A stretch of 64,000 bases of DNA from positions 50,868,250 to 50,932,249 of the forward strand of contig CM055895.1 of assembly GCA_029582155.1 (NCBI GenBank), read 5' to 3'. A model generated the notes under the pieces. It was given only the letters and a program-made list of their open reading frames with translations, was not told the origin of the DNA and did not search any database. A program made the translations under genes and the position numbers. Position 1 is the stretch's first letter. The number at the start of each line of letters is the position of its first letter. Positions 6,101-60,100 of this stretch are shown here, in pieces. The stretch is from Panopea generosa (taxonomy: Eukaryota; Mollusca; Bivalvia; Adapedonta; Hiatellidae).

Positions 6101-9100
6101 CGACCCTATTCGTAATTTTACATCGTTGTATAAATCTATATATGGTTGCAAATGTTGCCTTTTGTACGATTTAAATAAATTTATAAAAAACAAAATAAGT
6201 CTGTATTCACACCATTTTGAGTAATAAACAGTATTACACAAATAAATTTAAAAAATACCTTCTTGAATTGTTTGTGGCGAAACAGCATCCAGGTTCCAAC
6301 GCAAAACTCCGTTGACGACGAACAGAACATTACATCTTTATATGAAAAATGGTCACTTTGAAAGTTTAACGTTGTGATACATGTTAGCATTTATCAACAC
6401 TGCCGTATAATAAATTTGGAGTTTTTTAAATGAGAAAATAAAATGTTCTGGAAATAAAACGAACCATAATCAATATCTGTGATATCCGAATGAACGCAGG
6501 TTGCTACAGACGCCAAGCATTGACGACATCGACCATTGAGCGGAAAACAACGCAAAATGCCCAAAATTAAAAGTTTTTTTTTCTCCCACGCAAAACAAAT
6601 CACTTAATAATTAATACTTTTAATGATATCAAACATTTTTATAGTATGATTCCATTTTCCTAATGGATTACTGGCATTTATGTGTTCATATCACTTGTGT
6701 TGTAACGGGAAACGGGCAAGAAACAACCAGGTTCGGGAACGATTTTTTAATTATTTTTATATGAGCGCAAGTGTCGCCATACTAGATATTTATGTACATG
6801 TTTTGTTTTAATACCAGTAAATGTTGGGGAAAATTTCAAGAATGGCAAAGAATGCGCTCTATGTAAAAACACTAAATAATGGTTGAATATCCATGAAAAT
6901 AGCCAATTTCCTTAAGTATTGGGTATATTTGGGGTTCAATAAAATACAACAACATACAATCAGCACAATATATTATATATGGTTGGATCATTGAGGTCTC
7001 TCACAACAACAAACACGTGGTATATTATGGGTTCCGTTTATTTTATATTTTGTAAATGTATTGGGCCGATTTTGGCTACTCGTGAACCTAGCCCTTTGTA
7101 GCTGTCGCACCACATGTAGTTCTTATGTTACATACATTTAAATTGTATTTTTGCTTGACAACTGATATGTGATTTCTTTCATTACATTTGTTACTGAAGG
7201 TTCTTCTCCAAAGTAGCCAACAGCATGGGTAACACTCACAAGACGATCTATGCTCCGGCAGCTGAGGTGTGCGGGATGATATTCCATCACCTGTCCGAGA
7301 AGGAAGATGAGAAGGATGGCTCCTTCCACACATATGTCGGTAATCTGATGACACAGTTGCACCAGAGTAAGCCCGACAACTTCATTACCAGTGTGCACAG
7401 GATGCAGAAACACTACCCACCAATAGCTGACAGGTGAGCATGGCTGGTGTATAGTTAATGCAGAAACACTACCCACCAATAGCTGACAGGTGAGCATGGC
7501 TGGTGTATAGTTAATGTAGAAACACTACCCACCAATAGCTGACAGGTGAGCATGGCTGGTGTATAGTTAATGTAGAAACACTACCCACCAATAGCTGATA
7601 GATGAGCATGGCTGGTGTATAGTTAATGCAGAAGCAATACCCACCAATAGCTGACAGGTGAGCATGGCTGGTGTATAGTTAATGCAGAAGCACTACCCAC
7701 CAATAGCTGACTGGTGAGCATGGCCAGTGTATACATGTAGTTTATGAAAACACTACCCACCAATAGCTGGCAGACAGGTGAGTATGGCCAGTGTATACAT
7801 GTTCTTAATACAGAAACACTACCGACCAATAGCTGACAGGTGAGCATGGCTGGAGTATAGTTAATGAAGAAACACTTCCCACCAATAGCTGACAGGTGAG
7901 CATGGCCAGTAATAAATTAATGCAGAAGCACTACCCACCAATAGCTGACAGGTGAACATGGCAGGTGTATAGTTAATAAAGAAACACTACTCACAAATAA
8001 TTGACAGGTGAGCATGGCTAGTGTATAATTAATGTAGAAACACTACCCAACAATAGCTGACAGGTGAGCATGGCCGGTGTATAGTTAATGTAAGAACACT
8101 ACCCACCAATAGCTGACAAGTGAGCATGGCTGGTGTTTAGTTAATGTAGAAACACTACCCACCAGTAGCTGATAGGTGAGCATGACCGGTGTATAGTTAA
8201 TGTAGAAACACTACCCACCAATTGCTGACAGCTGAGCATGGCTGTTGTATAGTTAATGTAGAAACACTACCCACCAATAGCTGACAGGTGAGCATGACCG
8301 GTGTATAGTTAATGTAGAAACACTACCAACCAATAGCTGACAGGTGAGCATGGCTGGTGTATAGTTAATAAAGAAACACTACTCACAAATAGCTGACAGG
8401 TGAGCATGGCTTGTGTATAGTTAATGTAGAACCATCACCCACCAATAGCCGACAGGCGAGCATGGCCCTTGAATCTTCAAAAATTATGTTATTTAATGTT
8501 ATATGACATTGTACAGTAGTTATAGATCTATCAAAATTGACAAAAATTAAATGTTTGAGGTACGATCTTTGCATTATCGAAAAATGTCTTCCTTAGCATT
8601 GGAACAGGTGAGCAATATAGGGCCAGTGAAATGTTTGTTCACAGTATGATTTGAGATGTGTTTAATGTATTCCATTGTGTAAACTAGAATGACACTTGTC
8701 ATATGCATGATATAAATATTTAATGTTTCATACACATGCAGGTTTATGAACAAATTACTCTTTATGCTGCCCAATCTTCATGGAGAGTTTCGTACCTTAT
8801 GTCTGGAGGTGCTGCACGGCAGAATAGATCAAGTGGAAAATGTCTTCCTTGAGCTGAAATCCAAGGGCATCATGGCGTCATTGGGGCACAGGTAATGTTA
8901 TGTTGCGAAATGTCTTTTGTGAAATTATGAAATTAAATTGTAAAACATTGTATCTGCATAGGCGTGTCCTTGTATGATGGTTTGGTTTGTGTTATTTTGA
9001 TTTGCCTTGCATCGCAATAAATTTATAATGGTAGTTTTAGATAATTTTAGTATTAAGCGTTATTTTTTAATTTAATTCAGCTGTTTAGGTTCAGAATAGA

Positions 9101-57100: not shown

Positions 57101-60100
57101 TTAAATATAACTGAGAACAGAGTGCCCTGGGATTTGTTCAGGTAAGTTAAATATAACAGAGAACAGAGTGCTCTTGGATTTGTTTAGGTAAGTTAAATAT
57201 AACTGAGAACAGAATGCCCTGGGATTTGTTCAGGTAAGTTAAATATAACAGAGAACAGAGTGCCCTTGGATTTGTTTAGGTAGGTTAAATATAACAGAGA
57301 ACAGAGTGCCAAGGGATTTGTTTAGGTAAGTTAAATATAAGAAAGAACAGAGTGCCTTGGGATTTGCTCTGGTAAGTTAAATATAACAGAGAACAGAGCG
57401 CCCTTGGATTTGTTCAGATGTGTCAAATATAGCTGAGACTAAAGAATTCTTGAAGTATTTTCTTGATCAACTGTATTAATAAGCTCCATCATACTTATGT
57501 TTTCTCTTTTTGACCATTTAACCAATCACTTTTGTTAAAAGCAACATTTCAGTGTTTATAGTATAAAAAAGAAAAAAAACACATTTAAACAATTTAATCA
57601 ACACACATTATTGTTCTTTGTTCTCTTTGTATTTATGAAATTAAAAATCTTGTACGAGGAGGGAGACTTGCAGGTAGTTTTTCACCATATGGAAAACAGT
57701 GTCAATTTCTGGATCTTGTGATAACTTTAAAAGTACTTAAGGTGGAGGTAGAGGACAGTGGGATAGCCATTAACATGACATGGGGGTAGAGGACAGTGGG
57801 ATAGCCATTAACATGACATGGGGGTAGAGGGCAGTGGGATAGCCATTAACATGACATGGGGGTAGAGGACAGTGGGATAGCCATTAAACATGACATGGGG
57901 GTAGAGGGCAGTGGGATAGCCATTAACATGACATGGGGGTAGAGGGCAGTTGGATAGTCATTAGACATGACATGGTGGCAGAGGGCAGTGGGATAGTCAT
58001 TAAACATGACATGGGGGTAGAGGGCAGTGGGATAGTCTTTAGACATGACATGGGGGTAGAGGGCAATGGGATAGTCATTAGACATGACATGGGGGTAGAG
58101 GGCAGTGGGATAGTCATTAAACATGACATGGGGGTAGAGGGCAGTGGGATAGTCATTAAACATTACATGGTGGTAGAAAGCAGTGGGATAGTCATTAAAC
58201 ATGACATGGGGGTAGAGGGCAATGGGATAGTCATTAGACATGACATGGGGGTAGAGGGCAGTGGGATAGTCTTTAGACATGACATGGGGGTAGAGGGCAA
58301 TGGGATAGTCATTAGACATGACATGGGGGTAGAGGGCAGTGGGATAGTCTTTAGACATGACATGGGGGTAGAGGGCAGTGGGATAGTCTTTAGACATGAC
58401 ATGGTGGTAGAAAGCAGTGGGATAGTCATTAAACATGACATGGGGGTAGAGGGCAGTGGGATAGTCTTTAGACATGACATGGGGGTAGAGGGCAGTGGGA
58501 TAGTCATTAAACATGACATGGGGGTAGAGGGCAGTGGGATAGTCATTAAACATGACATGGGGGTAGAGGGCAGTGGGATAGTCTTTAGACATGACATGGT
58601 GGTAGAAAGCAGTGGGATAGTCATTAAACATGACATGGGGGTAGAGGGCAGTGGGATAGTCTTTAGACATGACATGGTGGTAGAAAGCAGTGGGATAGTC
58701 ATTAGACATGACATGGGGGTAGAGGGCAGTGGGATAGTCTTTAGACATGACATGGGGGTAGAGGGCAGTGGGATAGTCATTAGACATGACATGGGGGTAG
58801 AGGGCAGTGGGATAGTCATTAAACATGACATGGGGGTAGAGGGCAGTGGGATAGTCTTTAGACATGACATGGTGGTAGAAAGCAGTGGGATAGTCATTAA
58901 ACATGACATGGTGATAGAGGGTACTAGATTGTGTGCATTATTTTACTTTTCCAGCTTGACCAATATTTTGTTTGCCATCACAATGGAAATGTGAAAAATT
59001 GTGTCACTATCTTAAACCTGTGATAACCTAGAAAACATGTACATAAGACTCATGACACTTGGCATGGTGATAGAGGCAATGAGGAGATTATACATGTTAT
59101 TTCATTTTTTAGGCTGGACCAATATTTTTTTTTTTTATGGAACGAAAAAGTGAAAGACAGTGCCAATAACTAGGTCCAAGATTATAAACGCAATACTAAA
59201 AAATAAACAAAAGTACCTGTAACTGTCTACTTCAGATCTGCATTAATACTTTCAAATCAAGGCCAGGTCAAGTGTCTGTGCTTTAGTTTGTATTTTTTTA
59301 TGAATCCTTGAAAATGTATTTGAGTACGAATATAACAATTTTATAACCTTGGTACTTGGGTACTATTTTACTTTTAATGTTTACGGTAGATTCGTGAATT
59401 TGGACATTGAGATAGGAGAAGGAGGAGACCATGCTAAGTTTTTTGTTGCCATTGAGGTATAAACCCAACATTGATTTGTATTCTTTATTCTATAGTATAA
59501 AATAATAAAAGTTTGAAGACTTGTCATTCATAGAGAACCCCAAATGAAAGAATTGAAACCTACATTTTACTGTTTGTCAACCTCTGCACCATCAAAATAT
59601 GATGAGAAAAGTAATAGTCATGTGTCATACAAGAGATTTTTTTTCTGCTCAGTGTGTGCACTGTTGACAAAGTGAAAGTAGACTTCTAAAATTGTGTATT
59701 CATACCCCAATTTCCAAGCATCAATTTTTATTCTAAATTCACAATTCAAACATGACAATGCTGTCAAAATGTTCAAAATACATAAAAAATGCCATTCAAA
59801 TAAAAAAAATGAGCATTAAAATAAGGAAAATGCATTTTTAAAGAAGAAGAAAAGAGGATTATTTATAACCAGCATTATGCGACTACCCAATGGAAGCACT
59901 TCCTTTTTGCAATGGTGGTACTATGCCCTGAAACCAAATATTGCTCAGAACTGGAAAACAAAGAGAGTGCATGAGTGTATGATAGACTGGTTTAAATTTC
60001 TATGATATCATCTAAAACGCCAAAATTTTCTCATGTGTTTGATTTTTTTTTTTTCATGTCCTTTATAAAATATTTGTATGTTAAAAATTAAAGTAAAGCT

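Follow-up and report, generated by a model that had tools for sequence, protein, structure and literature searches.

Minisatellites across the exon edges of PRKDC in the bivalve Panopea generosa exceed chance within the gene

Tandem repeats whose unit crosses an exon-intron boundary have been described before, and the accounts given here follow the cited passages of each source. In amphioxus, minisatellites of this kind are termed mirages and are found in Adh3, the globins BflGb6 and BflGb9, troponin C and PGBD5 (PMC3087553, PMC3902484); the first report concerned the Adh locus, as described in PMC3087553, where the mechanism is called unclear. In human CBS, the 31-bp variable number tandem repeat (VNTR) c.1444_1467+7(16_21) comprises 16-21 copies of a unit made up of 24 exon and 7 intron bases, and c.844_845ins68 is a 68-bp duplication of the intron 7/exon 8 junction for which splicing prefers one site of the duplicated pair (PMC2630376). 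A model of intron gain by tandem genomic duplication, in which the copies of an AGGT-bearing segment provide the splice sites, is set out in PMC3443670, and the minisatellites treated in PMC4039745 and PMC12783039 lie inside introns, not at boundaries. These are scattered cases, for which the cited passages give no rate, and among the open-licence titles and abstract openings listed, none mentions a mollusc with boundary-spanning minisatellites. Here we describe eight such arrays in PRKDC, the DNA-PKcs gene, of Panopea generosa (GCA_029582155.1; genome 1.47 Gb, 39 contigs), four of them in a 64,000-nucleotide stretch of contig CM055895.1 (positions 50,868,250 to 50,932,249, forward strand; hereafter the window) and four upstream of it. 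A preliminary description of the window had stated that no described process predicts such a pattern; the same structure is described in the amphioxus mirages and the human CBS VNTR, and its kind is therefore already known.

The whole gene was covered by joining 200 kb of flanking DNA to the window, so that 264 kb were examined, with positions upstream of the window numbered below 1. Exons were predicted with a home-made exon finder and checked by alignment to human DNA-PKcs chains, yielding 73 exon models in a gene of 145 kb, and tandem arrays were called with TRF in the window and the whole region. The predicted exon protein aligned with positions 2199-3103 of the human DNA-PKcs chain 5y3r_C (E 1.9e-167), and further predicted exons aligned with positions 3269-3871 of chain 7k17_A (E 1.1e-137). 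The upstream exons matched stretches between 77 and 2202 of 7k17_A with a whole-query E of 7e-149; 10 stretches passed singly, those after the ninth being known from coordinates only. Judged by the predicted protein, the gene carrying the arrays is PRKDC. Five exons were added or extended late on the basis of coding score, phase and apparent resemblance to the human sequence, and the small exon 12447-12536 is likewise taken to resemble human DNA-PKcs. In the window, 7.8% of the sequence falls within exon models, somewhat under the share of about 9% that had been estimated from the letters.

The arrays at or near exon edges and the exons that they adjoin are as follows.

7200..7433, plus strand: PRKDC exon with its donor inside the array 7402-8466 (exon finder, aligned to human DNA-PKcs).
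7402..8466, plus strand: donor-side boundary array, 56-bp unit, about 19 copies, beginning 32 bp within the exon and continuing into the intron (TRF, sequence).
11628..12418, plus strand: minisatellite, unit 14/27 bp, stopping 28 bp short of exon 12447-12536 without overlap (TRF).
12447..12536, plus strand: small PRKDC exon, overlooked in the first pass (coding score, phase).
13433..13688, plus strand: minisatellite, 21-bp unit, stopping 18 bp short of exon 13707-13863 without overlap (TRF).
13707..13863, plus strand: PRKDC exon adjoining the array 13433-13688 (exon finder, human alignment).
25571..26497, plus strand: acceptor-side boundary array, 77-bp unit, 12 copies, finishing 22 bp within the exon (TRF, sequence).
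26476..26586, plus strand: PRKDC exon with its acceptor inside the array 25571-26497 (exon finder, human alignment).
50869..51756, plus strand: minisatellite, 37-bp unit, 24 copies, abutting exon 51757 (TRF, sequence).
51757..51884, plus strand: PRKDC exon, start reliable and 3' end approximate (exon finder, matched to 7k17_A).
54531..55924, plus strand: acceptor-side boundary array, 54-bp unit, about 26 copies, finishing 24 bp within exon 55901-56062 (TRF, sequence).
55901..56062, plus strand: PRKDC kinase-domain exon with a different boundary array at each end (exon finder, human alignment, sequence).
56025..57414, plus strand: donor-side boundary array, 46-bp unit, about 30 copies, beginning 38 bp within exon 55901-56062 (TRF, sequence).
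-77790..-77060: upstream donor array, beginning 31 bp within exon -77851, whose end was taken one base short in the chance count.
-67944..-67744 (L012 2056-2256): upstream array with a 33-bp donor unit, beginning 14 bp within exon -68012..-67931.
-39466..-38123: upstream array, beginning 19 bp within exon -39572.
-9185..-8483: upstream array, beginning 79 bp within exon -9247.

Eight arrays straddle an exon edge, six on the donor and two on the acceptor side. They include 14-79 bp of exon and extend into the intron with units of 32-118 bp in 6 to 42 copies, and their repeat units span the exon-intron boundary, as in mirages; in the array 7402-8466, for example, the unit contains the junction, reading GCTGACAG on the exon side and GTGAGC on the intron side. 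TRF, the exon models and the sequence of the array edges thus bear out the earlier observation that arrays sit at the exon-intron boundaries of one gene, including its four window arrays that hold coding sequence together with the real splice site (exons 7200-7433 and 26476-26586 and both ends of 55901-56062). A fifth had been said to end in a real acceptor tract, and does so: the final TTTTCAG of 50869-51756 is the acceptor of exon 51757, and its unit has TTTCAG as an acceptor tract but lacks coding sequence. The proportion of sizeable window arrays near exons, given as eight of about eleven, needs correction; by hand we count seven of the eleven window minisatellites of at least 250 bp as touching an exon or lying within 30 bp of one, and one of these (11628-12418) hinges on exon 12447-12536, a model drawn only from coding score and apparent likeness to the human sequence. 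The original eleven were not itemised and apparently omit seven window arrays with 146-163 bp units.

We regard the boundary-array structure as close to certain. Long repeats are known to cause misassembly, and an assembly artefact could in principle produce such arrays; however, the 264 kb contain no N, the copies differ among themselves and contigs C2, C6, C13 and C14 all carry boundary arrays, making this explanation very improbable. The arrays also appear to be local rather than members of a dispersed satellite, with the unit at many unlinked places: in the one array examined, all 8 exact genome matches of a 23-bp piece of the 77-bp unit fall within the array 25571-26497. Several units hold AG/GT beside coding sequence, as required by the model in the cited part of PMC3443670, and the arrays might thus record the birth of introns by tandem duplication of an AGGT-bearing exon segment. 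All eight, however, occupy part of introns that continue to the neighbouring exon model, and of the explanations weighed here we find this one the hardest to credit.

Next, we compared the placement of the arrays with chance, counting as minisatellites all TRF arrays of at least 100 bp with a period of at least 10 and outside 140-170. Every array was reduced to a single unit, which was then placed randomly in the collapsed gene, with wholly exonic positions excluded. Over the whole gene, 8/28 arrays straddled an edge and took in 10 bp or more of exon (expected 1.30, p = 1.8e-5), and 12/28 straddled or lay within 30 bp of an edge (expected 2.64, p = 2.9e-6). Omitting the five late exons left these counts at 8/28 and 11/28. 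The window contributed 4/13 and 7/13, respectively, and the upstream half, which the preliminary description had not seen, 4/14 (p = 0.0057) and 5/14 (p = 0.011). Farther than 30 bp from edges, array counts were at or under expectation. None of the nine arrays in the 140-170 bp period class straddled or came near an edge, with 1.34 straddling and 1.75 including near ones expected, numbers so low that they prove little alone.

As a control that leaves the arrays in place, all exons were slid circularly round the gene in 1494 slides, using 29 arrays, among them 46019-46522, a 33-bp minisatellite classed as long-unit since TRF favours a 169-bp period. Exon-end overlaps of 10-80 bp were observed eight times against a mean of 1.92, and 0/1494 slides reached eight; by halves, the upstream count of 4/14 was reached by 13 slides and the remaining 4/15 by 20. 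By the plain distance measure, 8 arrays ended no more than 30 bp from an edge against a mean of 3.29, and 21 of the 1494 slides reached 8. Together, these data show that the exon-edge pattern exceeds chance within PRKDC, in agreement with the non-randomness asserted for the window, and that the straddling measure replicates in the upstream half and the plain distance measure does not.

The excess lies among long arrays, under a length split that was chosen post hoc. Above 400 bp, 7/15 arrays straddled and 10/15 straddled or lay within 30 bp (expected 0.71 and 1.43), compared with 1/13 and 2/13 for shorter minisatellites (under about 400 bp), and straddling arrays were longer overall (median 996 vs 287 bp, p = 0.058). 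Below 100 bp there were 49 arrays, of which we tested the 30 of 25-99 bp, leaving out 19 under 25 bp; none straddled an edge (expected 1.16) and one was near.

We then asked of 11 arrays (8 in PRKDC, 3 in myosin genes) how the copy at the exon edge compares with the others. It was the most typical copy in four (exons -77851, -39572, -9247 and 26476), and at exon 7200 it ranked second among 18. In amphioxus, cluster boundaries escape homogenisation according to the cited passage of PMC3087553, so a typical end copy is unexpected in an ordinary array. The copy comparison therefore supports the exon edge as the putative founder in about half the arrays.

Both the sharpness of the excess, which is limited to 30 bp from exon edges with none beyond, and the founder-like edge copies in several arrays would also suit a bias of birth, in which splice junctions would be favoured starting points for duplication owing to some physical feature, such as nucleosome edges, polymerase pausing or RNA:DNA hybrids; a start at splice junctions had already been suggested in the preliminary description. 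An unbiased process predicts 1.16 straddling arrays among the 30 short ones, and none was found, a result that includes weak TRF calls and is not decisive; arrays under about 400 bp, with their single straddling case, likewise speak against such a bias. We consider it unlikely, at perhaps one chance in five.

The copies inside the arrays keep their splice signal to a mixed degree. Whether inner copies preserve the GT or AG was scored in 14 cases, of which two were void (in one the edge was one base off, in the other no copies were found); in 11 of the 12 valid arrays the AG/GT was kept in more than half of the inner copies, the exception being exon -39572 with 17/35, so that the copies carry the AG/GT signals known from mirages. 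Reading through to the second donor meets a stop in 5/6 PRKDC donor arrays, so only the outermost donor would preserve the frame there; at exon -68012 the first 33-bp unit is in frame without a stop, and splicing at the second donor would lengthen the protein by 11 residues. Splicing is thus likely to take place at the outermost site, as far as the reading frames indicate. Were the copies instead selected as spare sites backing up the real donor or acceptor, their dinucleotides should be maintained; the AG is indeed mostly kept in the four acceptor arrays tested (11/11, 20/24, 2/2 and 4/4 copies), but in two donor arrays the GT is lost more than the remaining core (kept in 20/30 copies at exon 55901 and 17/35 at exon -39572). 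Both sets of counts are weak because copies are not independent, and together with the stops ahead of the second donor they leave selection for spare sites highly improbable.

We favour, with a probability of roughly 70%, the explanation that these are local minisatellites of the mirage kind, seeded by the exon edge itself, tolerated because the outermost site would be the one spliced, and retained when long. An exon edge and its splice site would seed tandem amplification, and, because minisatellites are common throughout the sequence examined, the duplication probably proceeded by ordinary slippage or unequal exchange. Splicing would then use the outermost site and remove the remaining copies as intron. 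An array fixed to an essential exon edge presumably could not be deleted whole and would go on growing and shrinking, while an array free within an intron could be lost; the excess of long arrays at edges would accordingly reflect retention, with births no commoner there. Retention is a conjecture, in keeping with the dependence on length.

Several results weigh against this explanation. Two of the eight array-bearing exons, -77851 and -68012, correspond to weak DNA-PKcs stretches that fail alone (i-E 0.55 and 84) and were accepted because they are collinear with the human chain. In the slide control, arrays with an end no more than 30 bp from an edge showed no significant excess in the upstream half (3/14, reached by 305/1494 slides), as opposed to the other half (5, reached by 31/1494 slides). 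Retention predicts older arrays at edges, and the match percentages give no such sign: edge arrays were not more diverged, with a median copy-to-copy match of 88.5% vs 90% elsewhere (p = 0.64), although homogenisation can mask the age of an array. In the founder comparison, the edge copy was middling in 5/11 arrays and last of six at exon -68012, and hence neither first nor second in 6/11. Lastly, the window holds arrays away from exon edges, of which the first four lines below are counter-examples.

57743..58921, plus strand: long minisatellite, 39 bp, 30 copies, far from exon models.
32093..33180, plus strand: long minisatellite, 40 bp, 27 copies, far from exon models.
44664..45063, plus strand: minisatellite, 37 bp, 11 copies, nearest exon edge at 192 bp.
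46019..46814, plus strand: two neighbouring 31-33 bp minisatellites (46019-46522 and 46680-46814), off exon edges.
33325..34585, plus strand: satellite-like array, 147-bp unit.

Evidence from other genes weighs on the same side. A myosin-head family search returned 81 exon matches, 55 of them in examined DNA; four lack an exon model (L031, L032, L038, L046) and 51 were used, counting arrays of at least 60 bp. Among the 24 arrays, three straddled an edge by 10 bp or more (expected 1.30, p = 0.14), whereas seven straddled or lay within 30 bp (expected 3.19, p = 0.032), a small excess carried by the first batch (5/10 near edges) with no signal in the second (1/14 straddling, 2/14 straddling or near). 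Clear boundary arrays nonetheless exist at L036 886-1097, L048 868-1044 and L067 1-630. A search for kinesin exons returned 126 matches, five of which look like duplicates.

Genome-wide, we counted three motif copies spaced about 20-50 bp apart, with the reversed and a scrambled motif as controls. Three copies of AGGTAAGT occurred 4270 times vs 1597 for its reverse (5.13 vs 2.15% per single occurrence), a count raised by a repeat family whose core is GAGAGGTAAGT, and three copies of CAGGTAAGT 482 times vs 190 (2.99 vs 1.56%). The scrambled motif GATGCAAGT, similarly common as CAGGTAAGT, reached 4.06% and its reverse 1.30%, and among the matches listed, from C1 to C3:69.9 Mb, there were 11 donor arrays vs 10 scrambled ones. 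Tandem donor motifs are thus in no excess over the scrambled motif across the genome. As a separate observation, the 45-bp tandem units at C1:58991380 and C1:63086922 both hold GAGAGGTAAGT, and one also holds TCGAACCC, marking a family with a donor-like motif; TCGAACCC presumably resembles the tRNA B box.

An extension of the pattern beyond PRKDC accordingly finds weak backing in the myosin arrays and none in the donor-motif count, and exon-edge enrichment is not shown to be a general rule across genes. Nor do the absence of straddling short arrays, the small myosin excess and the negative motif count show that duplication starts preferentially at splice junctions. The weak myosin excess and the motif result are also what one would expect if arrays were common genome-wide and PRKDC had been noticed as an unusual draw, and minisatellites do occupy about 20% of the sequence flanking the gene and 13% of the gene itself. 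Against such chance and picking of a striking gene stands the unseen upstream half, with its 4/14 straddling arrays (p = 0.006 when rounded) and 13/1494 slides, although this is the same gene and a gene-specific oddity is possible; we think a chance draw doubtful, with odds of about one in four. Equally tentative is the broader proposition that exon edges anchor minisatellite growth in this lineage, where arrays would persist and expand and introns lengthen from their ends inward, as a general process set by length and turnover in many genes.

With eight boundary arrays in one gene, their number, length dependence and sharp restriction to exon edges become measurable. If the pattern were true genome-wide, one could ask whether exon edges generate tandem repeats or simply preserve them, and it would bear on intron lengthening and on how splicing disregards dozens of near-perfect copies of its sites; if it is absent elsewhere, PRKDC in Panopea generosa is a local curiosity.

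Other repeats in the region are of a different character. The seven window arrays with 146-163 bp units include none at an exon edge, and three of them (21597-22103, 33370-34585 and 61944-62597) have a nearly identical 146-147 bp unit, forming a family present at several places, in contrast to the local boundary arrays. The minisatellite 57743-58921 has uninterrupted reading frames of 355 codons (plus strand) and 363 codons (minus strand), and because its 39-bp unit is a multiple of three it is likely to mislead gene finders. The arrays L012 4495-4781 and 6094-6380, 1.6 kb apart, agree exactly in length and score and share a 132-bp unit in 2.2 copies, which suggests a recent duplication of the enclosing block. 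At 4281-5861 on the minus strand, an intronic open frame of 527 amino acids matches the Pfam family DDE_Tnp_4 (DDE endonuclease; E 6.3e-8, above the cut-off) and looks like an inserted DNA transposon.

The PRKDC arrays resemble the amphioxus mirages, as these are presented in the cited passages, in being tandem copies of an exon-intron boundary on the donor or the acceptor side, many with AG/GT. For amphioxus Adh3 and the globins regular splicing is reported, and lengths that are unstable between haplotypes or cells are a further trait of mirages; the PRKDC arrays are known here from one assembled sequence. They also differ in number, with one mirage in each of two globin genes and two in PGBD5 compared with eight in Panopea generosa PRKDC, and in copy number, with 6 units in one BflGb6 haplotype and 3 in another compared with up to about 42 copies. 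The human CBS 31-bp VNTR shares with them a unit of exon plus intron and differs in being one polymorphic mammalian locus. To go by a reference title, that VNTR is reportedly linked to reduced CBS activity. CBS c.844_845ins68, in the source as cited, has one extra copy and no array, unlike PRKDC, and intron gain by tandem duplication is described in PMC3443670 as making a new intron within an exon, while the PRKDC arrays occupy part of a longer intron. The PRKDC case adds a count against chance placement, in a bivalve, and what is new here is how many boundary arrays one gene contains, how many copies they have, and an excess that is measured and depends on array length.

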